Source: a virus. From it: a stretch of DNA of 52,542 nucleotides. Position numbers and translations under genes: made by a program. Positions 872-51,287 of this stretch are shown piece by piece (the stretch's first letter is position 1; each line of letters opens with the position of its first letter). The notes beneath the pieces were generated by a model, which made no database searches, had not been told where the DNA came from, and was given only the letters and a program-made list of their open reading frames with translations. The DNA is taken from positions 1-52,542 of IMG/VR virus record IMGVR_UViG_3300013118_000236; one strand, given 5' to 3'.

Positions 872-1066
872 TCAAGCAGTTGTCAAGAGTTCTAAACTTT
901 TCTCGCCGCACCATTCTTGATGACCGGGACCGAAAAGCGATTCGCCCTGCGTAGTCCACATCACTTGAACGGGTGCGATGTTGCGGGAGTCTCGGTTACA
1001 CGAAACATCCACCACAATACCGATCTGCTCGGTCAGAAAATGTTTAACTAAGTCACCGACTTGCAT
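872..1066 (-). CDS. GDLV mini-protein (64 aa)
   Basis: Starts MQVGDLVKHF and shows the family strands GIVVDV and VQVMW, ending SLELLTTA. It is the last gene of the 1758-872 operon. Its start overlaps the previous gene by 14 nt. Its 3' end runs through the tandem TTGACA boxes of the next promoter, which explains why its tail differs from the usual SESR. Function unknown; a small SH3/KOW-like barrel is inferred from the spacing of short beta-strand motifs. Confidence 0.8.
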   Translation of the reverse strand: MQVGDLVKHFLTEQIGIVVDVSCNRDSRNIAPVQVMWTTQGESLFGPGHQEWCGEKSLELLTTA

Positions 1067-3892: not shown

Positions 3893-4240
3893 CTAATCGT
3901 CAACGACGAAATGTACCCCGATAGGCGCGACACCACGTGGAACCTCGCCGTCAACGATACCGCCGTGCTTTGCCAGCACATTCGTCACCACTTGAACCGG
4001 CACATACGCATAAACCGTTTGTGTTGGCTTGTCTGGTTCCTCTGCGTATTCCATGATCATATCTTCCCTTTGGCTGGGAAAGCCTACCTCTACTTCTTCG
4101 TATTTGTCTGCTCCACTCATCCTTGGGGTACAATACGCACCATGATGCGCCTGCACGCTCATCTTAAAACCATCGGCGCATACCACCTGTCGGTTTCTGT
4201 TGGAACCAACTGTATTAAAAAACTCATTCGCGCTACCCAT
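3893..4240 (-). CDS. Unknown phage protein (115 aa)
   Basis: The sequence contains DGFKMSVQAHHGAYCTPR, YEEVEVGFPS, a TVYAYVPVQVV strand and AKHGGIVDGEVP, ending VVDD. The pattern looks like a conserved phage early protein, but I cannot name a function. It is the last of the five-gene 5020-3893 operon, beginning with a one-base TAATG overlap on the previous gene, and its stop abuts the duplicated TTGACA boxes of the next promoter. Confidence 0.62.
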   Translation of the reverse strand: MGSANEFFNTVGSNRNRQVVCADGFKMSVQAHHGAYCTPRMSGADKYEEVEVGFPSQREDMIMEYAEEPDKPTQTVYAYVPVQVVTNVLAKHGGIVDGEVPRGVAPIGVHFVVDD

Positions 4241-4539
4241 TATTCAAACTCTCCTTTTTTGACAAACTTTAAGTCATTTCTGAGAAAATACGCATCTTCT
4301 CTATTCTTGTTAAAACTCCGCCCCCAGCGCCCATTCGGGCCATCACTTTGCATCCACCTGACGTAGAATCGTGTCTTTTCGTTAACGGAAGTCCATGAAT
4401 AGACTTTTGGCACTGTTTTGATTTCCATAACCAAACCGACGAGGGGCCTCTTTTCAATCCAAATCCGTCGCGACCAACGGCGCAAATCATTTGTTTGAAG
4501 GGCGTATGCCGATAATGTTACTAAATCACCTACTTTCAT
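4240..4539 (-). CDS. Long GDLV family member (99 aa)
   Basis: Starts MKVGDLVTLSAYALQT. The insert WSRRIWIEKRP precedes a LVGLVMEIK strand, and FYVRWMQ is the V-x-W strand. The tail FLRNDLKFVKKGEFE replaces the canonical LEVISESR, consistent with a non-paralog following it. It is the largest family member here and couples to its upstream neighbour by ATGA. Confidence 0.78.
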   Translation of the reverse strand: MKVGDLVTLSAYALQTNDLRRWSRRIWIEKRPLVGLVMEIKTVPKVYSWTSVNEKTRFYVRWMQSDGPNGRWGRSFNKNREDAYFLRNDLKFVKKGEFE

Positions 4540-5093: not shown

Positions 5094-5333
5094 TCAAGAG
5101 ATTTGACTGTTCGCCCAGGGTTCGATATATGCTTGTCTGTCGCCATCTTTTGCAACAGTAAAAGCGTCGGTTGTGAGCATCGGATTGATGCCACGCTTAA
5201 TAATAAACCATTCTTGGCCGCTAACTTGGAGCAAATCAGGGTATGGACGGCCGTGAGACTGCGGGTGCATATCCACCACAATAGCCATAACTCCGGGGTT
5301 AAACTTATACATTACCAAATCACCGACTTTCAT
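5094..5333 (-). CDS. GDLV mini-protein (79 aa)
   Basis: I start it at ATG 5333 (MKVGDLVMYKFNPGVMAIVV), because an in-frame extension upstream is simply the other frame of the neighbouring 45-residue gene. It has QEWFIIKRGINPML as the middle strands and a long, different C-terminus ending YIEPWANSQIS, which overlaps a promoter's upstream TTGACA boxes. ATGA overlap with the upstream gene. Confidence 0.78.
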   Translation of the reverse strand: MKVGDLVMYKFNPGVMAIVVDMHPQSHGRPYPDLLQVSGQEWFIIKRGINPMLTTDAFTVAKDGDRQAYIEPWANSQIS

Positions 5334-5779: not shown

Positions 5780-5986
5780 TCAAGGAGTTGTCAAGTAAAC
5801 CACATCATCATTTCTTTCGTTGACAAGGTATTTGCCCCCATCGATCCACACAACCCACAACAAATCTTTCCAGCCGCCCGCCTGTCGATCATCGGACTCA
5901 AAACTTTCCAATACAACGCCGGGGTTAGACCAATCCTCGTCACCGAACGATTTTGGCTTGAACGATATTAGATCACCGACTTTCAT
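5780..5986 (-). CDS. GDLV mini-protein (68 aa), end of a seven-paralog operon
   Basis: Starts MKVGDLISFKPKSFGDEDW. PGVVLESFES and LLWVVWIDGG are the two family strands, and it ends DDVVYLTTP. It is the terminal gene of the 7057-5780 operon, whose seven genes are all paralogs. Its start lies in the 14-nt overlap with the previous gene, and its tail overlaps promoter boxes instead of carrying SESR. Confidence 0.82.
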   Translation of the reverse strand: MKVGDLISFKPKSFGDEDWSNPGVVLESFESDDRQAGGWKDLLWVVWIDGGKYLVNERNDDVVYLTTP

Positions 5987-6131
5987 TCAACAACTCCCAA
6001 GAGGTTGAGTTGAAAACTTGGTTAGGAGATTCGCCAGCAACCTTGAAATATGCACCGTGCTCATTGACACACCATATCACAATACTGATCCTACCTGTGA
6101 ACTTGCACCTAATCAGATCACCCACATTCAT
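5973..6131 (-). CDS. GDLV mini-protein (52 aa)
   Basis: Encodes MNVGDLIRCKFTGRISIVIW, HGAYFKVAGES and the canonical tail WELLNESR. Both ends lie in 14-nt dual-frame junctions (6118..6131 and 5973..5986). The upstream junction reads ATGAATGTGGGTGA, giving NECG-stop in one frame and MNVGD in the other. Confidence 0.84.
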   Translation of the reverse strand: MNVGDLIRCKFTGRISIVIWCVNEHGAYFKVAGESPNQVFNSTSWELLNESR

Positions 6132-6318
6132 TCAAAATCTCCAGTTGATCGAGCGGGGTCGAATAAACTTCGCCTTCCCACAACACGTGGGCGTGAGTAA
6201 TAACAGTCCACCCATCTTTATCTAATGCGGTTGCATAGGTATCATCCTCAATAAAAATGCCAGTGATGGGTTTTTCATTCGGACCAAAACTTACTTTTAC
6301 CAGATCACCGTGTTTCAC
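6118..6318 (-). CDS. GDLV mini-protein (66 aa, GTG start)
   Basis: Starts MKHGDLVKVSFGPNEKP. ITGIFIEDDTYATAL and HAHVLWEGE are the strands, and LDQLEILNECG the tail. The His in MKHGD is forced by the junction GTGAAACACGGTGA, which is also SETR-stop of the upstream gene. Confidence 0.83.
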   Translation of the reverse strand: MKHGDLVKVSFGPNEKPITGIFIEDDTYATALDKDGWTVITHAHVLWEGEVYSTPLDQLEILNECG

Positions 6319-6493
6319 TTACTAACTCCCAATCATCTTCGCGGAGCCAGCCCACAGATTCTCCATGGGCAAGCACCTTTATCCAGTTGATTCGTGTCTC
6401 TGTCACGATATGTATGCTGCTGCTCTTGAAGGACGCCGCCGTAAGTACATGATATTGTCTGTATTTCTTTCTCACCAGATCACCGACTTTCAC
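6305..6493 (-). CDS. GDLV mini-protein (62 aa, GTG start)
   Basis: Starts MKVGDLVRKKYRQYHVL. The middle (SSSIHIVTETRINWIKVLAH) keeps a V/I-rich strand pattern, followed by WLREDDWELVSETR. Flanked by 14-nt junctions on both sides; the Shine-Dalgarno GAGGTG lies in the upstream gene's V-E-V codons. Confidence 0.83.
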   Translation of the reverse strand: MKVGDLVRKKYRQYHVLTAASFKSSSIHIVTETRINWIKVLAHGESVGWLREDDWELVSETR

Positions 6494-6677
6494 TTAGCAC
6501 CTCGACGTATCCAATGGGATACCATGATTCTTGTCCCTCTTCCAAAACTTTAACTAACCCTAAGCCGTTTGGGTGCTGTCCACTCTTGTTGACTTCCAAC
6601 ACAATGCTTACAAAGTTAGCGCAATCCTCTACACGGCTTGAGTGATAACCCACCTTTACCAGATCACCCACCTTCAC
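6480..6677 (-). CDS. GDLV mini-protein (65 aa, GTG start)
   Basis: Starts MKVGDLVKVGYHSSRVED. FVSIVLEVNKSGQHPNG and LVKVLEEGQESWYP lead to the canonical tail VEVLSESR. Its junction with the downstream gene is GTGAAAGTCGGTGA, the commonest form of the overlap. Confidence 0.84.
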   Translation of the reverse strand: MKVGDLVKVGYHSSRVEDCANFVSIVLEVNKSGQHPNGLGLVKVLEEGQESWYPIGYVEVLSESR

Positions 6678-6846
6678 TCAGCACCTCAAGCATCTTTATA
6701 AACTCGTAAGTCATATCCCCGTCATTCCATTGAATCCTTGCCACGCGATTGCCGTGGTCAATCGCTGTCTCTTGGGGTCCAACCTCCACAACAATGCCGT
6801 GGTGTATGTGGTCATCCCTTCTTTTAACTAAGTTACCGACTTTCAT
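6664..6846 (-). CDS. GDLV mini-protein (60 aa)
   Basis: Starting at ATG 6846 it reads MKVGNLVKRRDDHIHHGIVV, VARIQWNDGD and LEVLSEGG. The longer reading begins at a TTG one codon earlier, but the ATG restores the exact 14-nt overlap. Here the overlap ends in TAA because GDL has become GNL (GGT AAC), so the D-to-N change and the stop-codon change are one mutation. Confidence 0.84.
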   Translation of the reverse strand: MKVGNLVKRRDDHIHHGIVVEVGPQETAIDHGNRVARIQWNDGDMTYEFIKMLEVLSEGG

Positions 6847-7057
6847 CAATCACCTCTAAATCTGTGATAGGGACTGTACGCTTGTCACCGTTAATCAATA
6901 CGATTGCGTGTGGCTCTGGATCGATCTTGCCCCAGTCTACCTTGCTGCCAAGCTCATCTGTGCGCCAACACTTCTTTTCTATCAAATCAACAATGAGGCC
7001 GGCGCGGAATGATGCTCCGTGAACTGCTGAAAGTTTAACTAAGTCACCTATTTTCAT
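6833..7057 (-). CDS. GDLV mini-protein (74 aa), leaderless first gene
   Basis: Starts MKIGDLVKLSAVHGASFRAG. LIVDLIEKKC, AIVLINGDKRTV and DLEVIDESR follow. Its ATG lies 6 nt after the -10 box, so transcription should begin at or within the start codon and no Shine-Dalgarno is available. It opens the longest paralog operon in the window. Confidence 0.82.
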   Translation of the reverse strand: MKIGDLVKLSAVHGASFRAGLIVDLIEKKCWRTDELGSKVDWGKIDPEPHAIVLINGDKRTVPITDLEVIDESR

Positions 7058-7063
7058 ATATAT

Positions 7064-7092
7064 AATATAGCACCAAAGCCGGCGCTCGTCAA
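7064..7092 (-). promoter_or_regulatory. Early promoter cassette, leaderless type
   Basis: TTGACG (7092-7087), 17 bp, TATATT (7069-7064), ATG at 7057. A TTGACA box lies 15 bp upstream (7107-7102). Confidence 0.74.
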
Positions 7093-7123: not shown

Positions 7124-7330
7124 CTAAACTTTTCCAGGCTGCCCCTTTGGGCTAACAACTTTTAGCTTTGAGCGTTGCCACCATCCGATAGGGTTGTTTT
7201 CGGATGACCACAGGATTTTACATTCGATCCCTTTAGTCTCGGTCACCAATCCAACGCAAGAAATATCGCGTTCCTCATCGTAGAGCGCGACAACCAGATC
7301 ACCGATGCTTGGGGCGCCGCTATCCTTCAT
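7124..7330 (-). CDS. GDLV mini-protein with N-terminal extension (68 aa)
   Basis: Reads MKDSGAPSIGDLVVALYDEE, then GLVTETKGIECKILW and WWQRSKLKVVSPKGQPGKV. The core G-D-L-V sits at residues 10-13 after an extension, and the L-K-V-V-S segment corresponds to L-E-V-I-S. It follows an unrelated gene after an 18-nt gap rather than a dual-frame junction. Confidence 0.78.
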   Translation of the reverse strand: MKDSGAPSIGDLVVALYDEERDISCVGLVTETKGIECKILWSSENNPIGWWQRSKLKVVSPKGQPGKV

Positions 7331-7725: not shown

Positions 7726-7935
7726 TCAATCTACTTTTTGTATTGGAACAATGAAATATCCATTAAATCTATAAGTTTTTTCTGAACCAAGAAACATTAA
7801 ATCGTATTCTTCACTTGCGCGTACATAGTCGGATCCGGGGACTGCGCTACTGGAAACTATTATAGCTGTCCGATGATCCGGAATACCATCCTCGTGTGTT
7901 CCATCCTTTAATCTTACTAAGTCACCGACTTTCAC
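7726..7935 (-). CDS. GDLV mini-protein with DGTH-IPDHR motif (69 aa)
   Basis: Starts MKVGDLVRLKDGTHEDGIPD, with HRTAIIVSSS and YDLMFLGSEK, ending FIVPIQKVD. It is the sister of 1823..2020, sharing DGTHxxxIPDHR and the x-FLGxxxxxxF pattern. GTG start in a 14-nt junction with the upstream gene. Confidence 0.82.
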   Translation of the reverse strand: MKVGDLVRLKDGTHEDGIPDHRTAIIVSSSAVPGSDYVRASEEYDLMFLGSEKTYRFNGYFIVPIQKVD

Positions 7936-8122
7936 TTACCACCTCAAGCCTTCCAGAATCCACCCACCAAGTCTCTCCGTCGTTAAACAAAACTTGTGCT
8001 GATACTGTATCATGTCCTGTCTTGGATATTTGAATCACCAAGCCGTGTTCTGTGCGGGGGTTGGCTTCAAACACATCGAACTCCAAATCGCTATCAAACT
8101 TTACCAAATCACCGGCTTTCAC
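7922..8122 (-). CDS. GDLV mini-protein (66 aa, GTG start)
   Basis: Starts MKAGDLVKFDSDLEFDVFEA. HGLVIQISKTGHDTV, AQVLFNDGETWWV and the tail LEVVSESR follow. The upstream junction is GTGAAAGCCGGTGA: the T-to-C change makes MKAGD here and is silent (Ser) in the upstream ESR. Confidence 0.84.
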   Translation of the reverse strand: MKAGDLVKFDSDLEFDVFEANPRTEHGLVIQISKTGHDTVSAQVLFNDGETWWVDSGRLEVVSESR

Positions 8123-8291
8123 TTATGACCTCCAATGTCCATATGCTGCTCCAATCAATCGGACATTCTTCCCACTCATCAACCCAGTGGACTTTAACCT
8201 GCTTGCCGCTCGCCTTAATATCGAGAACAATGCCATGTCCCAGCCATCCAGCCGGATCATTCTTCACTTTTACCAGATCGCCCACTTTCAT
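8109..8291 (-). CDS. GDLV mini-protein (60 aa)
   Basis: Starts MKVGDLVKVKNDPAGWLGHG. IVLDIKASGKQ and VKVHWVDEWEE lead to LEVISESR, the cleanest example of the family layout. ATG start lies inside the 3' end of a non-paralogous gene whose tail imitates the family junction. Confidence 0.85.
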   Translation of the reverse strand: MKVGDLVKVKNDPAGWLGHGIVLDIKASGKQVKVHWVDEWEECPIDWSSIWTLEVISESR

Positions 8292-8475
8292 TTATAATCT
8301 CAAAATCAAAACATTCGGTACACATTTCAGACTCTTTAATAGTTTTGCGAGACAACTCTATTATTGCTCTGCGGTGAAACCTAATCATATTATAGTGCGA
8401 TTCGATGCATCTGTCAATCAGTTTTCTCTCGTCGGGGTTCACTCTTTTCTTCCTTTTGACAAACAATGGAGGCAT
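8257..8475 (-). CDS. Unknown basic protein carrying a GDLV-type junction tail (72 aa)
   Basis: From ATG 8475 it reads MPPLFVKRKKRVNPDERKL, a helical IESHYNMIRFHRRAIIELS segment, CTEC, then FEIINESGRSGKSEE. The FEIINES part matches the L-E-V-I-S-E-S family tail although the body is unrelated. The expected stop is lost because GGGCGA stands where GGGTGA would be, so it reads seven codons further into the next gene. The N-terminal half overlaps the upstream gene by 62 nt; a longer start at 8529 is possible. Confidence 0.6.
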   Translation of the reverse strand: MPPLFVKRKKRVNPDERKLIDRCIESHYNMIRFHRRAIIELSRKTIKESEMCTECFDFEIINESGRSGKSEE

Positions 8476-8668
8476 CCTGTTCTTCGTGTAGTTTAACCAC
8501 ATAAAAAACTTTACCTTCGTAAATCTCACACGGGAATACCGATACAGGCATCACAGCCACTGCGGGACCGCCATTAGATGCCGGTGTTGTACTTAGTTCC
8601 ACCGTTGCAAAATATGGGTCATAGGAATCAATCATTCCAACTAAAATAAATGTTGTTAAGTATGTCAT
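8414..8668 (-). CDS. Unknown small protein (84 aa)
   Basis: ATG 8668 follows GGAGAG and encodes MTYLTTFILVGMIDSYDPYF, ATVELSTTPASNGGPAVAVM, a PCEIYEGKVFYVVKL strand pair and a charged end EKSEPRREKTD. The layout (short beta barrel-like repeats, PCEIYEG) resembles small phage and bacterial OB/SH3-like proteins, but no function can be assigned. Confidence 0.62.
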   Translation of the reverse strand: MTYLTTFILVGMIDSYDPYFATVELSTTPASNGGPAVAVMPVSVFPCEIYEGKVFYVVKLHEEQDASIVCQKEEKSEPRREKTD

Positions 8669-21482: not shown

Positions 21483-21776
21483 TTATCCTCTTAAAATTTG
21501 TTTGTTTGTGTGTAGTGTTTTTTCAATAATCTCCGGAGCGCCGATTACTACAATTTCGGTACCCGTATTTCCTTTATCAATTGTTATTTTTGAAAACCGA
21601 TGGTTGGTATCTAAACCTTTGTCTATCAGACCTTCTTCGTTTAACTGCCTAAGTCTGTGCTCCTCTCGGACCATAACAACGTGTTCGGGATTGACGAAGA
21701 CTTCTCTTAGTGCGTATTTGGCGTTGGTGGTAACTGCTCCGGTTCCGCACACCTCAGTTAGCTTAACTAGTCCCAT
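21483..21776 (-). CDS. Small FlbD-like beta protein (97 aa)
   Basis: From ATG 21776 with GGAGG: MGLVKLTEVCGTGAVTTN, VFVNPEHVVMVREE and SKITIDKGNTGTEIVVIGAP followed by EIIEKTL. The pattern (x-K-L-T-E, V-x-x-x-x-I/V, a strand pair, then E-x-I-E-K) resembles FlbD/DUF-type small proteins, but that is a fold-level resemblance only. It overlaps the upstream GDLV-like gene by exactly 14 nt. Confidence 0.58.
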   Translation of the reverse strand: MGLVKLTEVCGTGAVTTNAKYALREVFVNPEHVVMVREEHRLRQLNEEGLIDKGLDTNHRFSKITIDKGNTGTEIVVIGAPEIIEKTLHTNKQILRG

Positions 21777-21978
21777 TGAGTTCCTCCAGTGGATATACAT
21801 CTCTTCTTTTAAGCTTCCACGCGTGGCCGTTAGCATAAACTTGATAAACATGGTGACTCATTCTGCTCAAGTAAACACCAACAGTTGGTCTTTCGGTCCT
21901 TCTCAATCTCATTCCTTTATCGGTTTCACACCACAGTTCCACGTCTTGGGGGATGTGAATCAGATCTCCTTGTTGCAT
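21763..21978 (-). CDS. GDLV-like protein in the GroEL operon (71 aa)
   Basis: Starts MQQGDLIHIPQDVELWC; PTVGVYLSRMSHHVYQVYAN and the tail YPLEELNGTS follow. The family features are G-D-L-I at residues 4-7, a G-V-x-x strand and L-E-x-L-N near the end. It overlaps the following gene by exactly 14 nt with the Shine-Dalgarno GGAGG in its L-E-E codons, as in the array 14 kb away. ATG 21978 is fused to the GroEL stop (TGATG). Confidence 0.68.
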   Translation of the reverse strand: MQQGDLIHIPQDVELWCETDKGMRLRRTERPTVGVYLSRMSHHVYQVYANGHAWKLKRRDVYPLEELNGTS

Positions 21979-23555
21979 CACTTATCCTCCGTTTGAATTA
22001 TAGCGAAGCCGGTTGTTATCAACGTGCCAGCACAGCTAGCTGCATTCTGTAAAGCAGTCGTTGTAACTTTCACTGGATCAATAATACCACTGTCAACCAT
22101 ATTTGTCAAGACATTATTCCTAAAATCCCAGCCCATACCATCATCGGAATCAATAACCAAATTAGTTAATACATCTGGTGAGTCGCCGGCATTGAGCGCC
22201 ATTTGTTTAAAAGGTGCTTTACAGGCTTCTATAACTATTAGCTTTCCAATATTTTGATCTTCATGGGAAACAGTTATCTCAACATCCCTGCTTGCTCGGA
22301 GCAACGCTGTGCCGCCGCCGCCTATGATTCCTTTATCTTGTGCTGATCGTACCGCCTCTAGGGCATCCTCGATTCTATGCTTTCTCTCAATCATCTCAAC
22401 TTCAGTCGTGCCGCCGACAGAAATAATTGCCACACCAGACGATAGTCTGACGACCCTTGACTGGAGCATCTCGGCTTCCGACATGGACTCTGTATCTTTG
22501 ACTTGTTTCTTTAGAGCTTGGATTCTCTCATCAATAGCTTTAAAGTTAGATTTGCCACCCACAACAGTAGTGGTGTACTTTGTACTTTCGATTGCTCTGG
22601 CCATTCCTAAATCAGACAACTTGACGTCTGATAGTTTGGTGCCGCTCTCACGGGTGACAAAAGTGGCACCTACAGATATTGCCAGATCATCTAACAGGTA
22701 CCTGCGTTCTTCGCCATAATAGGGTGCCTTAATAGCAGCAATCTTTAAAGTTCCCCTCATAGCATTCATAATCATAGCAGCCAAGGCTTGGCCATCAATA
22801 TCTTCAGCGACAATTATCAGGGGGCGACCTTCCCTTGCTACCATTTCTAGTAATGGTAAGATGGGCTCAACTTGTGAAATCTTATAGTCTGTCACGAGTA
22901 TAAGTGGTTCCTCATAATTCATAGTTGCGCGGCGTTCATCAGTAACGAAGGCTGCGGCGCAATAGCCTGACTGAACCTTAAATCCTTCTGTAACATCAAT
23001 AGACGTGTCAAGAGAACGAGACTCTTCAATTGTTATGGAGCCATCTTCGCCCACCCTATCAATAGCAAGAGTGACAAGATTTCCAATAGCAGTATCGTTG
23101 TTGGCTGAAATTGTAGCAACGTGAGCGATATCTTCCGCGCTAGCGACTGGGGCTGCCATCTCTTCAAGATTGTTTGTAATTTCTCTAACTGTTGCATCTA
23201 TACCTCTCTTTAGTTCAATAGGAGAAACGCCGGTAGCAATATACTTTTGCGATTCATTTAAAATTGCTCGCGCAAGTACGGTTGCGGTGGTCGTTCCATC
23301 ACCAGCAGTGTTGTTGGTTTCAATTGCAGCTTGCTTAATAATCTGGGAACCTGCGTTTTCAAAAGGATCTTCCAGTGAAACAAAGTGCGCCACAGTTACC
23401 CCGTCTTTCGTGATGAAGGGTGGCCTCCCATTTTCTTGTAGAATTACGTTACGGCCTCGTGGACCAAGTGTTGACGCAACATTATCAGCTAATGTGTTAA
23501 CGCCTTTAAGAATTTTTTGTTGCAATGAAGTTTTATTATCAAATGCTCTGCTCAT
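21978..23555 (-). CDS. groEL: GroEL chaperonin (525 aa)
   Basis: Full-length Hsp60: TLGPRGRNVILQ, the nucleotide motif AGDGTTTATVLA (about 87-98), an apical domain with hydrophobic segments, and the late motif GIIGGGGTALLR with DALEAVRSAQDKG. The usual C-terminal GGM tail is missing (ends IIQTEDK). It should form an ATP-driven folding chamber for phage proteins with the GroES-like gene at 38951..39223, which is about 15 kb away rather than adjacent. A consensus promoter directly precedes it. Confidence 0.95.
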   Translation of the reverse strand: MSRAFDNKTSLQQKILKGVNTLADNVASTLGPRGRNVILQENGRPPFITKDGVTVAHFVSLEDPFENAGSQIIKQAAIETNNTAGDGTTTATVLARAILNESQKYIATGVSPIELKRGIDATVREITNNLEEMAAPVASAEDIAHVATISANNDTAIGNLVTLAIDRVGEDGSITIEESRSLDTSIDVTEGFKVQSGYCAAAFVTDERRATMNYEEPLILVTDYKISQVEPILPLLEMVAREGRPLIIVAEDIDGQALAAMIMNAMRGTLKIAAIKAPYYGEERRYLLDDLAISVGATFVTRESGTKLSDVKLSDLGMARAIESTKYTTTVVGGKSNFKAIDERIQALKKQVKDTESMSEAEMLQSRVVRLSSGVAIISVGGTTEVEMIERKHRIEDALEAVRSAQDKGIIGGGGTALLRASRDVEITVSHEDQNIGKLIVIEACKAPFKQMALNAGDSPDVLTNLVIDSDDGMGWDFRNNVLTNMVDSGIIDPVKVTTTALQNAASCAGTLITTGFAIIQTEDK

Positions 23556-31130: not shown

Positions 31131-34100
31131 CTAACCAAGCAGTTTAAATGTCTTACCCACAGCATAAGTGGAAAAGCCCCACTGCTCGTCATACTTTAAC
31201 TTGGCCATATAGGGCCTATTGGTGAAAATCTTATCTTTTTCTGGCTTGACGCCCCAACATCTAATCTTCTCTGTCTCGTTGTTGGAGTCAATTACCTCAA
31301 CAATCCAATAATTCTTGCCGTTCTTGGTTTTCTTCGGAACAATCTTGCGTGGAATGAACCAACACACGCACAGATCCGAATCAAATTCAGAAATAGGTGG
31401 AATAAATTTATCCTTGAGTCTTTGAATAGTTTCAGTGGTGATTACCAGATTCATTGGGAACACTCCAGTCAGTTCTGACTTAAAGTGAATGATTTCTTCT
31501 TCCGAGAAGTCTCCTTCCTTGCTGTAAGCTTCAATATTCTCAGCAAACTTCTTTCTATTTTTTGGTCTATCAACAACTGCTGCAGACCAAAAATGTTTAC
31601 GACCAGAGAATCTCTCGTCAACAAGCTTATCCATGGCTCCGGCGCGACAGAGGGCATCCAGCGCCTTCTTGTTCAATTTAGAATATGTTATCTCTTCCCG
31701 GAACAATAGGTCTTCAATGTTGTTGAAGGGTCGGTGTTCAATTATCTGCTCCAATGCAGAATCTCCAAAACCCTTAATGGAAGTAAGCGGCTGGATCAAC
31801 GTCGTGTTGTCTGATGCAATCTCCCACACACGTCCGGATTTATTAACGTCCACCGGTGCAATATTGTATCCGAATGACTTTGCAATATTGATTGCTTTTT
31901 CCTTACGGGTCTCAGGCTCTTTATCCAAGAATGCAGCCATCCATTCGGCCTCATAGTAATTCAGTAACCACGCGCACTGATAGGAGATCACACTATAGGA
32001 GACCGCATGTGACTTGTTAAAACCATATCCGGAGAAGTATTCAAACTTATCCCACAGTGCTTGCGCTTCGTCGCGAGAAATGTCTTTTGCCACACAGCCC
32101 TTAATGAATTTGTCATGCAGCCTGCCCTTTACGGAACCTTTGCCTGTTCCCTTCTTGGTTAACACCTTGCGAAGCATGTTACCTTCATCGAGAGTCAATC
32201 CCCCAAGCTTGTGGGCTAACAGGGCGATCTGCTCTTGGAAGATGAGGAATCCAAATGTTTCCTCGGTAATCTCTCGGGCCTCTTCAGAGAGATATCCAAT
32301 GCGATGCGGATGATTTTTTGCGTCCACGTAGTCAGCATCCACACCTGCTGATAATGGGCCCGGGCGAAAGATGGATGTAATAGCTGACACATCAATAATA
32401 TTACGAGGTTTCACTCTGGTGCAAAATCCTTGTGCGCCAGTCTCAGTGAACTGGAATACACCTGCCCACTTGCCTTTATGAAATATGTTTTCGTATACTT
32501 TTTGATCTTCAAGATCAATTACGTCTGGGTGTAAGTTTTCATTGTAGTAGTCGCGTACTTGGGTAAAGGTAGGCTCCTCAACGTTGTGGTAACGACGAAG
32601 TATGTGCTGAATGCAAACTTCCATCATCTTAAGAGTAGATAAGCCGAGCAAATCGAATTTAATGAACCCCATCGGTTCAAGATGACGTACGTTTTGACCC
32701 TCGGCCCATGGGGCCTGACGCACACCACCTGAGTTAATCAGGGGCATACTCTTGTCTAGATCTTCTGCAATAACTACCCCGCCTGCATGACGTGAACATG
32801 AGCGAACTTGGCCAACCAATCCTTCAACGTGTGTTTTTACTTGAGGATACTTGTTTAGATATGCGGTCAGTGTCGGTGAGAATTCCATCACCTCTTCCCA
32901 AGTTGGCACATATACGCCGGCTTTGATGCCGTGCTTACGCTTGGCCTCGGGTGTTGCTTCGCGGATCATAATAGACGTGACTGTGTTGACCTCTGTAAAT
33001 TCTATGTTGTAGAGTTTGGAGATATCTTTAATCAGCGATTTAAGCTGCAGCGTGTTCCAGTTGGAAATTGGCGCAACGCAATCCTCTCCCCACATTTCAA
33101 CAAGTCTCTCTTTGAGTGCCATACTGTCGGACACATCGTAGTCAATGTCAGGATAATCGGTTGCATCAGAACGCAAAAATCTTGAGAACAGAAGGCCATG
33201 CTTGATTGGATCAATTTGGGTGATACCCAGTGCATAGGCAACAAGAGAACCTGCGGCTGAGCCGCGGCCCGGGCCGGCGAGCATCATATTATTGGTGACG
33301 TCAACAATCGCTTTCATGGTAAGGAAATACTTGGAGAAGCCGCGATCATCTATCACATTAAGCTCTCTTCGTAATCTATCCGTGTACTCTTTGTTTGTGT
33401 GTAAGGCACGGTCTTTCAAGCCCTCTAGGGCAAAATTTACTAAGGCCTGTGTGGCGGTAAATCCGGCCGGCACAACAAACTCAGGAAGACGAACCGTGTT
33501 GTCGGGCAGGAATGATTCAATGCGCCCAAAAGCGATCTTGTGTGTTTCTTCAATACTTTGCAAGACTATATCATCGTTGTATTCAAACCCCTGCTCTGCG
33601 GAATATTGTTTGTAACTCTCCCACATTTGATCGCCATTCTTTGGGTATAGCTCATAACCGATCTCTTCAACACCATCAGGCAATTGAGATTCTTCTTCAG
33701 CCCAAGATGGCCGGCCTTTACCGAGCCAACCAAGGCGTTTGTAAAGTTCGCGATCTTTCCAAGCATCGGGGCCCGGATAATGACTATCGGCTGTTGATAT
33801 TAATTTAACATCAAACTCGTCGGCTACCTGCATTACATATTGATTTAATTCATGTTGTTCTTTAATGTTGTTCCATTGGATTTCGGCATACCACCGATCA
33901 CCAAAAACATCGACCATGCGTCTAGTGGTTTCGCGCATGGCTGCCAGCACTGCATCGTCGCTATCATCTCTATTCTCCCAATAGTCGCCGGCGTATACGC
34001 CGCCAAGACAAGCAGAAGAAGCGATAATGCCTTCATTGTATTTCTTGAGAAGCGCATAATCAATACGCGGATAGCGGTAAAAGTTTTCTGGCTGATATGA

Positions 34101-34559
34101 CTCAGAAACTAATTTAAATAGATTGTTTAAGCCCGTCTGGTTCTGTACCAACAATACAAGATGACGTCTGCGGCGCAATATATCTTGGGTTTTCTTGCTG
34201 TTGCCTTCGTCTTCTACGGTGGCGCCCGACTGGGCATCCTTCTTGATACTCTTGGCGCGCTTCTTGTCTGCCATGGCCTGATCATAGGCTTCTCGCCATT
34301 CTGCAATTGAGGGAGTAAAATACGCCTCGCAACCAAAAATAGGCTTGAAGTTTTTACCTTCGGCTTGCATTTTCTTTGCATGCAAAACCTGATATGCTAG
34401 ACCATTCATGTTTCCATGATCGGTTAAGGCTAGCGCCTCGCAGCCATTTTCGTACGCAAAATTCATATGATCCTGCGGAAATCCAATAGCATCAAAAATA
34501 GAACCGGCAACGCTATGTGCATGCAGTCCCACGAACTTAATCTTTGGTTGTTTATTCAT
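31131..34559 (-). CDS. dnaE: DNA polymerase III alpha subunit, family C (1142 aa)
   Basis: The N-terminal PHP domain shows KFVGLHAHSVAGS (about 8-20) and ALTDHGNMNG (about 44-53). The palm holds AGPGRGSAAGSLVAYALGIT (about 428-447) and the catalytic YPDIDYDVSD (about 469-478), where bacteria have PDFD-x-D. VGQVRSCSRHAGGVVI and FGFLIFQEQIALLAHKLGG are family motifs. Length is near that of bacterial DnaE. Presence alongside a family A polymerase suggests this is the replicative enzyme. A consensus promoter lies inside the upstream gene's 3' end. Confidence 0.95.
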   Translation of the reverse strand: MNKQPKIKFVGLHAHSVAGSIFDAIGFPQDHMNFAYENGCEALALTDHGNMNGLAYQVLHAKKMQAEGKNFKPIFGCEAYFTPSIAEWREAYDQAMADKKRAKSIKKDAQSGATVEDEGNSKKTQDILRRRRHLVLLVQNQTGLNNLFKLVSESYQPENFYRYPRIDYALLKKYNEGIIASSACLGGVYAGDYWENRDDSDDAVLAAMRETTRRMVDVFGDRWYAEIQWNNIKEQHELNQYVMQVADEFDVKLISTADSHYPGPDAWKDRELYKRLGWLGKGRPSWAEEESQLPDGVEEIGYELYPKNGDQMWESYKQYSAEQGFEYNDDIVLQSIEETHKIAFGRIESFLPDNTVRLPEFVVPAGFTATQALVNFALEGLKDRALHTNKEYTDRLRRELNVIDDRGFSKYFLTMKAIVDVTNNMMLAGPGRGSAAGSLVAYALGITQIDPIKHGLLFSRFLRSDATDYPDIDYDVSDSMALKERLVEMWGEDCVAPISNWNTLQLKSLIKDISKLYNIEFTEVNTVTSIMIREATPEAKRKHGIKAGVYVPTWEEVMEFSPTLTAYLNKYPQVKTHVEGLVGQVRSCSRHAGGVVIAEDLDKSMPLINSGGVRQAPWAEGQNVRHLEPMGFIKFDLLGLSTLKMMEVCIQHILRRYHNVEEPTFTQVRDYYNENLHPDVIDLEDQKVYENIFHKGKWAGVFQFTETGAQGFCTRVKPRNIIDVSAITSIFRPGPLSAGVDADYVDAKNHPHRIGYLSEEAREITEETFGFLIFQEQIALLAHKLGGLTLDEGNMLRKVLTKKGTGKGSVKGRLHDKFIKGCVAKDISRDEAQALWDKFEYFSGYGFNKSHAVSYSVISYQCAWLLNYYEAEWMAAFLDKEPETRKEKAINIAKSFGYNIAPVDVNKSGRVWEIASDNTTLIQPLTSIKGFGDSALEQIIEHRPFNNIEDLLFREEITYSKLNKKALDALCRAGAMDKLVDERFSGRKHFWSAAVVDRPKNRKKFAENIEAYSKEGDFSEEEIIHFKSELTGVFPMNLVITTETIQRLKDKFIPPISEFDSDLCVCWFIPRKIVPKKTKNGKNYWIVEVIDSNNETEKIRCWGVKPEKDKIFTNRPYMAKLKYDEQWGFSTYAVGKTFKLLG

Positions 34560-44284: not shown

Positions 44285-45406
44285 CTATTTCTCATCTTCG
44301 TCATAATAGTCGGCAGCGTTCCCTTGTCGATTCTGAAATTTTTGAATGACTTCGACTTCCATGAGTTCAAGAACCTTATTCCTAAACTCTTCGTCGTTCT
44401 TTACCAATTCGGTCCACTTCGATGGCTGGAACTTTTTGGAGTAATCGCCCATTGTCAGCGTATACCATGAGCCGGCAGACTGCATGTGCTTAGAACTCTT
44501 AACGGCATCGAACCATGATTCATGGTCTTGGATGCCAATTTCTTCAGTGCCCCATAGAATACGGAATGTGCAATTTCTGCCCTCAGTACCAAACCTTGAC
44601 TTTTCAAGTTTTACCTTAACTTCCGAACCAATCTTGAACCCTTTCTCGTCAAGTACAGCGGCCGCTTTGGATTTACGACCAGTAAGCCAAATACGCAATG
44701 AGTATGAATAGTGCATTGCTTTTCCACCCGGTGTAACATACGGCGTAGTCATTGCAATCTGTCGTGCCATCGGGCCTTGCGGAATATTGGTCTTTAATTG
44801 ATTGAGTACGATAAACGTTGCTTTTTGATCCGCGATAGGAATGACCAGTTTGGACATACCTTTTGCCAAGATTCGGGCCTTGGTGGCCACAGATGATTGC
44901 GGATTGAAGTCACCCTCAACATCTGAAATAGAAGGCGTAAACGCGAGAGAGTCCCATATGAAGACCAACTGATCTTCTGCTGCTCCGAGTAATTCCTCAA
45001 TAGTCTCCAAGACAAACTCAACTGAAGATGCCTGAACATACATTAAATTTTCCAAATCACAACCAGCACGACTTAAGAAGTCAGGATCGATAGCTGATTC
45101 AGAGTCAAAATAAACAACCATCTTGCCTTGTTTCTGAGCGTTGGCAGCAATTTGTGCTGCCATATAAGATTTACCAGTTGATTGAAGGCCCGCGATCTCG
45201 GTAATTTTACCAACCGGCACTCCGGCTAGATGACCCTTACAAATAATAGAGTCAAGCCACCTAGAGCCTGTTGGGATCCACTCCTTAACAGAAGTGGGGT
45301 TGTCGGTGGTAAGATCGTGCGCCACCTCACGGCCAGCTTTTTTATTCACTAGCTTCATAAGGTCGTGCATAGATACACGACCGGCCTTTGCTTTGGCTTT
45401 TGCCAT
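44285..45406 (-). CDS. RecA/UvsX recombinase (373 aa)
   Basis: Walker A ITEIAGLQSTGKSYMAAQIA (about 65-84), Walker B strand LVFIWDSLAFTPSI and FIVLNQLKTNIPQGPM with RIWLTGRKSK. The N-terminus is basic and the C-terminus acidic (AADYYDEDEK), as in UvsX/RecA. It should drive recombination-dependent replication together with the gp32-like protein at 48376..49146. Confidence 0.93.
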   Translation of the reverse strand: MAKAKAKAGRVSMHDLMKLVNKKAGREVAHDLTTDNPTSVKEWIPTGSRWLDSIICKGHLAGVPVGKITEIAGLQSTGKSYMAAQIAANAQKQGKMVVYFDSESAIDPDFLSRAGCDLENLMYVQASSVEFVLETIEELLGAAEDQLVFIWDSLAFTPSISDVEGDFNPQSSVATKARILAKGMSKLVIPIADQKATFIVLNQLKTNIPQGPMARQIAMTTPYVTPGGKAMHYSYSLRIWLTGRKSKAAAVLDEKGFKIGSEVKVKLEKSRFGTEGRNCTFRILWGTEEIGIQDHESWFDAVKSSKHMQSAGSWYTLTMGDYSKKFQPSKWTELVKNDEEFRNKVLELMEVEVIQKFQNRQGNAADYYDEDEK

Positions 45407-48375: not shown

Positions 48376-49146
48376 TTAACCAGCCATCAACTCATCGAAG
48401 GCTTTGTCAACGTCGTTAGCTTCCTTTTTACCATACGACTCAGTTTGGCGCGAGCGACCTTCAGCAGAAGAATCGGAGGCCAACTGTTCGTCAAGAATGG
48501 CATCAACCTGTTCGGGCGTCAGGCGCTCAAACAAGCTGTCAAAATCGGGCATATTTTCCAGAAGCCCGGGAAGAGCGTCAGAGTCACTTAGGAGGGGACT
48601 AGTGTTACGACGCATCTTCAAGTTGGTTTGTGGGTACGCACCGGGACGAGTGGGCTTCGTATAAGTGAGCGTAATGTCAGTACCCTCTACCGAATCGGTG
48701 ATATCACCGTATTCAGGATCAAGAATATATCCTAAAAGCAACTCATACGCGGTCTTTCCGTAACCATAGACCTTAATACCCTCATCCTCGCGTCCACGCA
48801 CCACTACCGGAGAGAAATAACGTTGACGCACAAAAAGCGACTTTGCCAACTTCTTGCTTTCCTCATCATTCTTCTCGGTGCCCTCGCGCCACAAAGATGA
48901 CGCGAATTCACATATAGGACAGCGTTCGCCAAAGTTGCGCTTCGGACAAAGCACACCGCCCTTATGATCTCCCACATTATAGTGGAAATACATTTCCTTT
49001 AACGGATCACCATCTGATGTTGGCACGATCCGAATATCTTGGTCTCCTTCATCTGGCTTAAACCAGTGTGAGGTACCATTATCTCTAGTTCCCTCGCCAC
49101 GCAATGTGGCGAGCTTTTGTTTCATTAGTTCCATGTTAATAGACAT
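48376..49146 (-). CDS. gp32-like single-stranded DNA-binding protein (256 aa)
   Basis: CPKRNFGERCPICEFASSLW (about 67-86) matches the zinc-binding motif of T4 gp32, the OB fold surrounds it (IRIVPTSDGDPLKEMYFHYN, RQRYFSPVVVRGREDEGIKV), and the acidic C-terminus (NDVDKAFDELMAG) is the usual protein-interaction tail. It coats ssDNA and organises polymerase, helicase and recombinase. Strong terminator downstream. Confidence 0.9.
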   Translation of the reverse strand: MSINMELMKQKLATLRGEGTRDNGTSHWFKPDEGDQDIRIVPTSDGDPLKEMYFHYNVGDHKGGVLCPKRNFGERCPICEFASSLWREGTEKNDEESKKLAKSLFVRQRYFSPVVVRGREDEGIKVYGYGKTAYELLLGYILDPEYGDITDSVEGTDITLTYTKPTRPGAYPQTNLKMRRNTSPLLSDSDALPGLLENMPDFDSLFERLTPEQVDAILDEQLASDSSAEGRSRQTESYGKKEANDVDKAFDELMAG

Positions 49147-49206: not shown

Positions 49207-50070
49207 TTACTCTTGCTCTAGCTTGTCAAGAGTTTTTTGTTGTATTACGTTGGTATGGGCAACGCAAAACCCAAAGTCTGTTTCAAAAGGCGACTCGTAA
49301 ATTGCATAAGAAACATTTTTAAATGCATTCCTAGGTTTATTTTTGAGATGGCCTATAATATTTTTGTGTAAATCTCCGTCCTTTTCCAATTTTTCAGTTG
49401 ATATACAGATATAATAACATACATCACGAGAGCTGTCAAGATCAAAATACCAATTTTCTTGAAGAGTTTGTGGGTCAATCCTCCCCAAAGAGCGGATTCT
49501 TTGAATGCCGGGGGCGGCCACTAAATTCCCAATAATTGGTGATGTATGATCAAATAAGTTCTTATAATGTACACAATAATAAATAGTTTTATTTATAGTT
49601 TCAAAGTATTTTTTAATAGGTACTGAGCCTATAGATTCTTCTAATATTGGGTTACTAAAAATTGTAAAAGAGTTGAATAAGCCGGACCTCGCATATTGCT
49701 GTAGAACACTAAAAATAGCACGTTCTTGGAGTTTCGCAGCACCCAACAATAGATCAATATCTGGCTCAATGTAAAAGATGTCGATTTTCTTATCTTTTAG
49801 TTGTTGCAAGATAGTCAACGTTGCGTTAGCAGTTCTCGCTGAACCACACAAGAATACTTGCACACGTTCCTCCATACTGGAAAAGAATTTCTCCAAGTTG
49901 GGAGTGCTTGTTTCGTAATCTTCAAGATTTGCTTGATATTTTATCTTTCGCTTGTATTTTGTATTTCTTTCAACATTATCAGACATAACATAGCAGTTAT
50001 ACTCTTTGTTGTTGGAAAAGCAATTAACAATATTTTCACCAGCAGTCCCAATACCCAAAAGTGATATCAC
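49207..50070 (-). CDS. Divergent FtsZ/tubulin-like protein (287 aa, GTG start)
   Basis: MISLLGIGTAGENIVNCF matches the G-x-G-x-x-G-N start of FtsZ. FLCGSARTANATLTILQQLK sits where FtsZ has GGGTGTGAAPV. IFYIEPDIDLLLGAAKLQER, AIFSVLQQYARSG, FTIFSNPILEESIG and IKKYFETINKTIYYCVHYKN align with V-T-x-P-x-x-E-G, the A-x-x-G-I helix, I-P-N-D-x-L-L and A-F-x-x-A-N-x-V-L-x-x-G-V. The GTP-phosphate loop is lost, so canonical GTPase activity is doubtful. Phage tubulins (PhuZ) position DNA in the host; a related filament or scaffold role is inferred. GTGA-coupled to the polymerase gene. Confidence 0.55.
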   Translation of the reverse strand: MISLLGIGTAGENIVNCFSNNKEYNCYVMSDNVERNTKYKRKIKYQANLEDYETSTPNLEKFFSSMEERVQVFLCGSARTANATLTILQQLKDKKIDIFYIEPDIDLLLGAAKLQERAIFSVLQQYARSGLFNSFTIFSNPILEESIGSVPIKKYFETINKTIYYCVHYKNLFDHTSPIIGNLVAAPGIQRIRSLGRIDPQTLQENWYFDLDSSRDVCYYICISTEKLEKDGDLHKNIIGHLKNKPRNAFKNVSYAIYESPFETDFGFCVAHTNVIQQKTLDKLEQE

Positions 50071-51287
50071 AAAATCAACTCCTTAAGATCATAGTAATTT
50101 TTTCCAGCATTGATGTTGCCACGAAATTTGCCGAGCGAATTATTTTCAAAAATATTTTTAATCAAAGGGGCCACACTACGCTCTGAATCATCAAGATCAA
50201 TAACTATTTCGTCATGCACAATATGTGATATAAATGATTTCTTTCCCTCTAGAAACTTATCAATCTCAACAGCGCGTTCCATGACTAAGTCTGCCGTCGT
50301 ACTCTGTATCAAATAGTTAAAGGCTTTTCTGTGTTCTACCGGAACTGCTCTTCCGGTCATGGTGTTAACTTTTCCATCTACATAATAATCGGATAATATT
50401 TTATCTCTGTTATACAGATCGCTTTTTATTGCGTCTGAGTCTGGATTGTATAACCAAGCAAAGAATTTTTCTTTAGCTTCTCCGCGTGATAAAACACCGC
50501 CAAACACATTTTTTGCATTCCACTGGTGGATGTCCCAATCGGGCTGCGGCTCATTGCCGAGAGCCAATACTGTTCTTAATTCGGCGCCATTATAATCCAA
50601 ACTGAGGAACCAATCATTTTTGGGCTTGATTATTTTACGGTGTGTCTTTTTCATGGTTAAAATTGGCAGAGAATTGCTGAATGTTGTCAAGCGACCAGTC
50701 ACTGTACCAAATAGATTATAATCAACGTGTGAGGGCCCAGACAACAGCCTTTGAAGTTGAAGGCGGTCCCTTGAATTGGTCATTAGCTCTCGGCAGTCTT
50801 TGTTGCTAGTAGTCAAATTGTTAAATTTGATCTTGTGCAGTAGTCTATGTACACTGGCTAGATGCTCATAGTTGCGCGGCTTTTCGTAATTTTCAAAAAC
50901 ATGTTTTGTAATCTGATTCTTAGTTTCGCAAAAGTTTAACAAAAAGTCTTCAGGCACCAAATCGTAAAAACACAATTCACGTAAATTAATTTTTGCTATT
51001 CTAAATGACTGAAGGTATGCTTTAAATTTGGCCTGATTCGAGGCCAATTTTGCAGATATATCGGTCGGGCAGACTTCAGCGAGATTCTTGCCGCCAGTCA
51101 TAATCCACGCATATTCCACAGAATTATCAGTGATAGCACCGGAATGGCGCCATGTTTTTGTTAGATTAACCGGCAGATCCTCAAAATATAGTTTACCATT
51201 TGTGTATATTCCGACGCACTCTGATTTATCGTCTAGACTTTGAAAGTACAATTTTTTCTCCGTAACCTTTTTTGTTCCTATTAACAT
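50067..51287 (-). CDS. DNA polymerase I family A, polymerase domain only (406 aa)
   Basis: The three palm/finger motifs are present: FLSLDYNGAELRTVLALG (motif A, about 230), RGEAKEKFFAWLYN (motif B with R-x3-K-x3-F-x3-Y) and SHIVHDEIVIDLDD (motif C). TGRLTTFSNSLP precedes motif A. Neither a 5' nuclease nor a 3'-5' exonuclease domain is visible in the first 170 residues, and the protein is about two thirds the size of a Klenow fragment. A second, possibly repair or gap-filling polymerase beside DnaE. The start overlaps the upstream gene by 62 nt. Confidence 0.85.
   Translation of the reverse strand: MLIGTKKVTEKKLYFQSLDDKSECVGIYTNGKLYFEDLPVNLTKTWRHSGAITDNSVEYAWIMTGGKNLAEVCPTDISAKLASNQAKFKAYLQSFRIAKINLRELCFYDLVPEDFLLNFCETKNQITKHVFENYEKPRNYEHLASVHRLLHKIKFNNLTTSNKDCRELMTNSRDRLQLQRLLSGPSHVDYNLFGTVTGRLTTFSNSLPILTMKKTHRKIIKPKNDWFLSLDYNGAELRTVLALGNEPQPDWDIHQWNAKNVFGGVLSRGEAKEKFFAWLYNPDSDAIKSDLYNRDKILSDYYVDGKVNTMTGRAVPVEHRKAFNYLIQSTTADLVMERAVEIDKFLEGKKSFISHIVHDEIVIDLDDSERSVAPLIKNIFENNSLGKFRGNINAGKNYYDLKELIL

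Follow-up and report, generated by a model that had tools for sequence, protein, structure and literature searches.

In lambdoid and other phages, modules are exchanged at short conserved boundary (linker) sequences near gene borders. PeSLs are non-coding units of a promoter and a stem-loop (terminator) located between genes. In T4-type phages PeSLs are mobile regulatory cassettes, in which a short conserved repeat lies between small genes and shuffling takes place there (PMC4503421). Overlapping genes can also be coupled in translation; coupling is most efficient at spacings of −4 to +3 nt and weakens as the overlap grows, and the enriched spacings are −4, −1 and −8, separation otherwise being likelier than overlap (PMC12548453). 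An overlap of 14 nt is therefore not an obvious optimum.

The window analysed here is the whole of a 52,542-base viral stretch. It encodes a DNA polymerase of the bacterial DnaE type whose N-terminal start is PHP-like (31131–34559), a DnaB-like helicase, a UvsX-like recombinase (44285–45406; PHROG 97, E 4.3e-62), a putative gp32-type single-strand DNA binding protein (48376–49146; PHROG 1192, E 1.9e-27), a ribonucleotide reductase and GroEL (21978–23555; PHROG 5725, E 4e-140), the four genes with coordinates all on the minus strand. Given this set of genes, the source is likely to be a large tailed phage, T4-like or otherwise. Besides the DnaE-type, UvsX-like and gp32-like genes, the phage carries a second polymerase-like gene (50067–51287). 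The window also carries arrays of small paralogous genes, most of which open with M-K-V-G-D or a variant of it, and the stop/start overlaps joining these neighbours were confirmed to be genuine. We consider it probable that the junction is a compact, dual-coded connector of small SH3-like genes that can be exchanged at a shared start block.

Stop/start junctions of the window and its relatives

All junctions of the window lie on the minus strand, as do the genes that they join, and are followed here from high to low coordinates. A 90-aa upstream ORF (8257–8529) runs 35 nt (8257–8291) into the first KVGD paralog (8109–8291, 60 aa), whose start block is ATGAAAGTGGGCGA. A 14-nt junction at 8109–8122 (GTGAAAGCCGGTGA) joins this gene to the second paralog (7922–8122, 66 aa), and another at 7922–7935 (GTGAAAGTCGGTGA) joins the second to the third (7726–7935), which closes the first array and has no SESR tail. 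A SIGDLV paralog (7124–7330) comes next, and the second array then opens, behind the promoter at 7069, with the KVGD paralog at 6833–7057. Further KVGD paralogs follow at 6664–6846 (orthologs in L003, 90%; L005, 73%; L004, 44%), 6480–6677, 6305–6493 (L003 ortholog, 93%), 6118–6318 (KHGD) and 5973–6131, entered through 14-nt junctions at 6833–6846 (ATGAAAGTCGGTAA), 6664–6677 (GTGAAGGTGGGTGA), 6480–6493 (GTGAAAGTCGGTGA), 6305–6318 (GTGAAACACGGTGA) and 6118–6131 (ATGAATGTGGGTGA), respectively. The junction at 5973–5986 (ATGAAAGTCGGTGA) leads to the terminal paralog of this array (5780–5986), whose LTTP and stop fall within the TTGAC repeats of the next promoter.

Further on, the KVGD paralog at 5094–5333 has a 4-nt ATGA overlap with a non-family ORF and ends in CTTGACA, and the KVGD paralog at 4240–4539 has a 4-nt joint in the window and, as its L005 ortholog, a 14-nt joint with another gene. 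The KVGD paralog at 2358–2519 has 4-nt joints at both sides and is followed by a KIGD paralog (2185–2361), a 14-nt junction (2185–2198, GTGCAAGTGGGTGA) and a KVGD paralog (2004–2198). A 17-nt junction (2004–2020, GTGTTCAAGATAGGTGA), with one extra codon ahead of KIGD, then leads to a terminal paralog (1823–2020) whose TSS and stop lie within CTTGACA. The last run comprises a KVGS paralog (1576–1758) with a 4-nt overlap with the next, KVGD paralogs at 1379–1579 and 1053–1220, a KIGD paralog between them (1207–1392), and a terminal paralog (872–1066), in which the Glu of the LEL strand is GAA, not GAG, and LTTA and the stop lie within CTTGACA; its 14-nt junctions are at 1379–1392 (GTGCACGGCATTAA), 1207–1220 (GTGAAAGTAGGTGA) and 1053–1066 (ATGCAAGTCGGTGA). 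A 14-nt overlap at 21763–21776 (ATGGGACTAGTTAA) follows a QGDL paralog, and GroEL is encoded immediately ahead of a pair of QGDL paralogs.

Measured from the downstream start to the upstream stop, the 14-nt geometry of the original prediction was exact at 13/13 coordinates, and its 17-nt variant at 2004 measured 17 nt. The wording of the motif fared less well: RTGAAAGTCGGTGA was found literally at 5973, 6480 and 7922 only, the 1379 junction reads GTGCACGGCATTAA as given above, and the 6833 junction ends in TAA. With up to two mismatches, RTGAAAGTCGGTGA has 17 matches in the window, all on one strand, where shuffles predict 0.52. At 21763 the geometry and a GGAGG are present, yet the junction leads into a gene outside the family and its letters bear no relation to those of the other joints. 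Junction geometry is thus more constant than junction letters. Two forms that the original prediction had not listed share the same kind of start block, namely the 35-nt overlap at 8257–8291 and the 4-nt ATGA/GTGA overlaps at 1576, 2358, 2516, 4536 and 5330. The 15 paralog–paralog junctions scored in the window comprised twelve of 14 nt, two of 4 nt and one of 17 nt.

Eight near-identical promoters, each made up of TATATTATA and, some 17 bases upstream of it, a TTGACN-like box, precede arrays or genes on the minus strand, at 837, 1789, 2645, 3854, 5048, 5479, 5755 and 7069; those found in the window lie between arrays, outside the joints. In most of them, additional TTGACA copies stand some 15 and 26 bases further up, and these could serve both for regulator binding and as stops in two frames. 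Where an array closes, its stop is once more provided by the element that comes next, as at 872, 1823, 5094 and 5780 in the window. Of 86 last genes followed by a promoter, 63 have their TGA within a TTGAC box, a descriptive figure since selection of these genes required a nearby TTGAC. The last genes of arrays in L013 and L032 share the tail KKCP, have TTGAC promoters behind them, and seem to close with another local element.

A 24-base pattern combining the ribosome site and the start block occurs in at least 118 IMG/VR stretches and in only six stretches among 84,980 genomes of bacteria and archaea. Of the latter six, PBIO01000025.1 matches in length (101,404) an IMG/VR viral contig with the pattern. 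The junction pattern was observed in a 2.8-Mb bacterial MAG (L233; WOR-3 chromosome record CP070664.1). To avoid bias, a second pattern fixed the start block alone and left the upstream side free. Both patterns and relatives found at the protein level together yielded 1,534 distinct family members, collected by the N-terminal motif rather than by a full model; the family has no conserved stretch of 7–10 columns. Pattern-selected loci are excluded from the frequency figures and included in the shuffling comparison. Ordinary spacers between these genes in related phages, which would make the overlap accidental, proved uncommon: among 173 neighbouring paralog pairs of the unbiased set, the overlap was 14 nt in 95, 4 nt in 25 and 10 nt in 18, and 17 pairs were separated or abutting. 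Overlap class was slightly more uniform inside a locus than after shuffling (0.74 versus 0.68). Arrays in L040, L098, L157, L170 and L227 mostly use a 10-nt joint (ATGCAAGTAG) with the tail CK or CE instead of SESR, which is a different local standard. Cultured phage relatives were not found by megablast, tblastn with two members gave no significant match to them, no family relatives were found in plasmids, and a literature search for the motif returned no paper.

The AlphaFold2 model of 7922–8122 (m1bbb933af3dd, mean pLDDT 82.2) contains five strands (E6-9, E27-35, E39-46, E51-55 and E59-63), and the paralogs are accordingly predicted, at the level of fold only, to be small SH3-like barrels. 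The best solved Foldseek match was PetP (TM 0.71, E 0.011), with Tudor and PWWP also near at weak E-values, and the nearest viral models were mostly unnamed phage proteins. The predicted five-stranded barrel is common to PetP, Tudor and designed SH3 proteins; unlike described SH3-like barrels, the paralogs have no assigned sequence family, Pfam giving no match above cut-off and PHROG only weak matches of unknown function. As a guess, they might be early, host-directed binding proteins.

Codon usage in both frames of the junction

In one frame the junction encodes the end of the upstream protein; in the other it holds the ribosome site of the downstream gene and the codons with which that gene opens. 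Stop, start and ribosome site are packed into about 30 nt. The last β-strand of the upstream protein, L-E-V-I, is written as a Shine-Dalgarno sequence (TTGGAGGTGATC), with the next start about six bases on; its codons spell the complement of the 16S rRNA 3′ end, AAGGAGGTGATC. In 14-nt joints L-E-V-I is mostly spelt TTG/CTG-GAG-GTG-ATC. For Glu in the upstream LEV strand, GAG is used in 102 of 106 cases, as against 42% in gene bodies (p 1e-30, a value that, like the other p-values on joints, is too small if taken literally, because related loci share history and the tests are not independent). Leu is TTG or CTG in 61/75 versus 37% (TTG alone, 53% versus 24%), Ile is ATC in 46/71 (65%) versus 30%, and Val is GTG in 46% versus 26%. 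The Glu preference is reversed in genes that close an array next to a promoter, with 15 GAA and 6 GAG at this position (p 4e-10). Complementarity of at least 5 nt to the 16S tail was present in 70% of unbiased 14-nt joints and in 35% of synonymous shuffles. The proposal that the L-E-V codons supply the Shine-Dalgarno is upheld at most joints; at 5973, 6118 and 6305 the complementarity to the 16S tail extends over no more than 4 nt. The usual position of GAGG, where it occurs, relative to the start is −10 in 14-nt joints, −8 in 10-nt joints and −11 in 4-nt joints; its placement suits the ribosome, and the residues that follow the strand vary in number accordingly.

Ribosomes finishing one gene, at or beside the next site, would probably re-initiate, and the strong ribosome site may offset the weaker coupling at a 14-nt overlap. 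Pairing around the start resembles that of the flanks, with no RNA hairpin beyond it; since no RNA structure masks the start, coupling by unfolding lacks support. Tuning for compact coupled expression might, in principle, be the whole explanation, with illegitimate recombination shuffling the genes, intact products surviving and the joint being no recombination site. The strong codon constraint at the ribosome site and the stop speaks for such translational selection acting alone, as do the placing of the ribosome site at −8 to −11 whatever the frame and overlap length, and the 21763 junction, where the same geometry is written in unrelated letters. We regard this explanation as a serious possibility, though a rather doubtful one in view of the shuffling data presented below and of the lack of a clear in-frame fusion of two domains among about 840 pairs.

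The shared C-terminal residues of the paralogs follow the neighbouring gene. Orthologs of 6833–7057 end in IDESR, IDER, IDEK, IDEG or IDETR before the stop, according to the gene that follows, and orthologs of 6480–6677 end in EVLSESR, EVINESR (EVxxESR) or EVINENRRSGENKI. In the model of 7922–8122 the last strand (59–63) is LEVVS, and the ESR tail lies outside it. Because the tail changes with the next gene and lies outside the last strand, SESR, NESR and SEGG appear, on the available sequences and the model, to be by-products of the downstream start and not conserved protein motifs in their own right. C-terminal residues that paralogs share, such as SESR, may therefore arise artefactually from the start of the following gene and need not be a functional motif.

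The start block closes both frames other than its own. ATGAAAGTCGGTGA has TGA at positions 2–4 and 12–14, one in each out-of-frame register, so that an incoming upstream gene ends after 4 or 14 nt; the conserved K-V-G-D opening in this way stops such a gene in either register. With CAA for AAA as the second codon, the first stop is lost and the frame closes at GTAG, giving 10 nt. With GGC for GGT, which also occurs in L004, the second stop is lost and the reading frame continues; the overlap at 8257–8291 extends to 35 nt because GGC in ATGAAAGTGGGCGA removes the +2-frame TGA. The frames of the joints (f2:f1:f0) were used in the ratio 141:57:0. If TGA in both other frames were a trivial by-product of M-K-V-G-D, with no selection on the overlap, the position-2 TGA should be set by the second residue, and it is (71% observed, 71% expected). 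The first stop, in other words, follows from the protein motif through the second residue alone. The second does not: the position-12 TGA, expected in 27% under random synonymous codons, needs GGT, and the KVGD Gly is GGT in 134/141 joints (95%) of the 14-nt frame versus 54/110 (49%) where the frame closes upstream and the stop is unneeded (p 2e-17). The ribosome-site codons, which lie upstream of the motif, are constrained too, and we consider the by-product explanation improbable. Val is encoded by GTT, a codon that would introduce Trp into the tail of the upstream protein, in 3/120 versus 26/77 (p 2e-9). GTG starts account for 75 of 141 joints in the 14-nt frame and 6 of 57 in the 4/10-nt frame; this excess may reflect the Ser/Asn codon made upstream or a need for weak independent initiation.

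Both frames are constrained, as seen in the Glu codon of the upstream frame and the Gly codon of the downstream frame. The suggestion of the original prediction that conservation of the protein ends is largely an RNA or overlap constraint also agrees with the data, in that codons are skewed at L-E-V-I, the start, Val3 and Gly4, where a ribosome site or a second-frame stop results, and orthologs' tails vary with the next gene.

Exchange of neighbours at the junction

Among orthologous units of different contigs (at least 55% identity), the downstream paralog was unrelated in 340 pairs and related in 28, a contrast that distant homologs, if missed, would inflate; near-identical units and a control were therefore used. 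Units 90–99.9% identical had the same downstream paralog in 15 of 49 cases, compared with 26 of 27 for ordinary gene pairs. In 39 otherwise collinear contig pairs, paralog joints were the same in 13 and different in 18, versus 122 and 8 for ordinary pairs, a control count that is favoured by the choice of collinear pairs and becomes about 44/8 without the two selecting adjacencies per pair. Of the 133 unit clusters with two or more occurrences ahead of a paralog, 119 had more than one partner. Identity at the joints drops to background beyond about −21 and +21 of the start. The window takes part in this reordering: in L003–L006 the gene directly after, and overlapping, the ortholog of 6833–7057 is the ortholog of 7124–7330, which precedes 6833–7057 in the window, and the orthologs of 5780–5986 in L005 and L007 are likewise the last of their runs, behind different neighbours. 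As judged from these contigs, neighbours are replaced at the joint one gene at a time. This concentration of shuffling at paralog–paralog joints, relative to ordinary pairs of the same contigs, argues against translational selection alone.

Insertion and deletion of single units were also observed. Neighbours A–B in one contig corresponded to A–X–B in another in 15 cases (23 if up to three inserted units are allowed), and the breakpoint intervals of these 15–23 cases lay mostly within −15 to +20 of the start, a placement partly forced by the design because A and B are intact genes. L015 and L155 are nearly 100% identical over about 11 kb, save for exactly one extra unit of 176 bp in L015, which lies between two copies of a 20-bp repeat (ATGAAAGTCGGTGATTTGGT); this arrangement is likewise hard to attribute to translational selection alone. 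The start of B is in a 14-nt joint after A and in a 4-nt joint after X, which would illustrate how the two-frame stop operates; the shorter version could, however, result from collapse of the assembly at the 20-bp repeat, the two contigs apparently coming from neighbouring datasets (IMG 3300001679 and 3300001680). The pairs L025/L088 and L038/L088, with flanks 91–97% identical, are free of this doubt. Such cases bear out the earlier idea that a gene-plus-joint unit can enter, or leave, in register.

Every unit opens with the same block of roughly 30 nt, and units could therefore be inserted, removed and exchanged by recombination there. Exchange would proceed by homologous recombination in the repeated block, for which the phage's UvsX-like protein is a candidate agent of short-homology exchange, the putative single-strand DNA binding protein being present as well; each product would keep a working ribosome site, stop and start, and arrays would be renewed one gene at a time. 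The best partner in the same locus has a median of 17 identical bases in common, and 32% share at least 20. Joint likeness is 77% within a genome and 75% between genomes, which does not suggest strong within-genome homogenisation; that joints are no more alike inside one genome is also what translational selection alone would give. Breakpoints at gene borders are expected from random joining and selection as well, so that they do not prove homologous exchange, and random joining with selection for intact genes is a live rival to it.

Growth of the arrays by tandem duplication of gene plus joint, in which neighbours are copied and the joint is kept by descent, as the original prediction had proposed, is very improbable and was rejected as the main source of units: although a few adjacent pairs are clearly related (57% identity in L048, the best match, and 45% in L032 and L069), adjacent paralogs are no closer than others (BLAST similarity in 15/838 adjacent pairs, or 1.8%, versus 1.1% of non-adjacent pairs), the same unit has differing neighbours between phages, and the units are thus drawn from a large divergent pool.

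Comparison with known systems

The connector that we favour may go further than a joint between two genes. We tentatively suggest, as a reading with somewhat less than even prospects, that the start block serves in nature as a scarless assembly standard of roughly 20–30 nt, combining ribosome site, start, two-frame stop and homology for recombinase-driven exchange of single genes. With it phages would mix small-protein arrays from a shared pool, all products remaining translatable in register and no integrase, attachment site or intergenic DNA being needed. If the block is a recombination site, it would represent a minimal natural design for in-register gene stacking. The junctions in any case provide a concrete sequence rule by which small accessory phage genes can be gained, lost and reordered with the operon unbroken, and they offer hundreds of natural variants for measuring re-initiation over a 14-nt overlap, outside the most efficient reported range.

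Integron gene cassettes have an attC hairpin site and an integrase; no hairpin was seen at this joint. With PeSLs the joint has in common a conserved repeated sequence at shuffling breakpoints. PeSLs, however, are non-coding and carry an early promoter and a stem-loop, whereas this joint is all coding, has neither promoter nor conserved hairpin, and links single genes within one operon; it does not fit the definition of a PeSL and is therefore not classed as one. It differs from the linkers of mosaic phages in that one boundary is present at nearly every array gene and encodes stop, ribosome site and start together. As in described coupled overlapping genes (NTGA, TAATG and longer; PMC12548453), the stop overlaps or adjoins the next start, and the downstream start and its Shine-Dalgarno lie inside the upstream coding sequence; here, however, −14 dominates and is standard over hundreds of divergent pairs, and the block accepts two upstream frames. 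The joint would combine overlap-coupled genes with modular phage shuffling, and both of these kinds are known.
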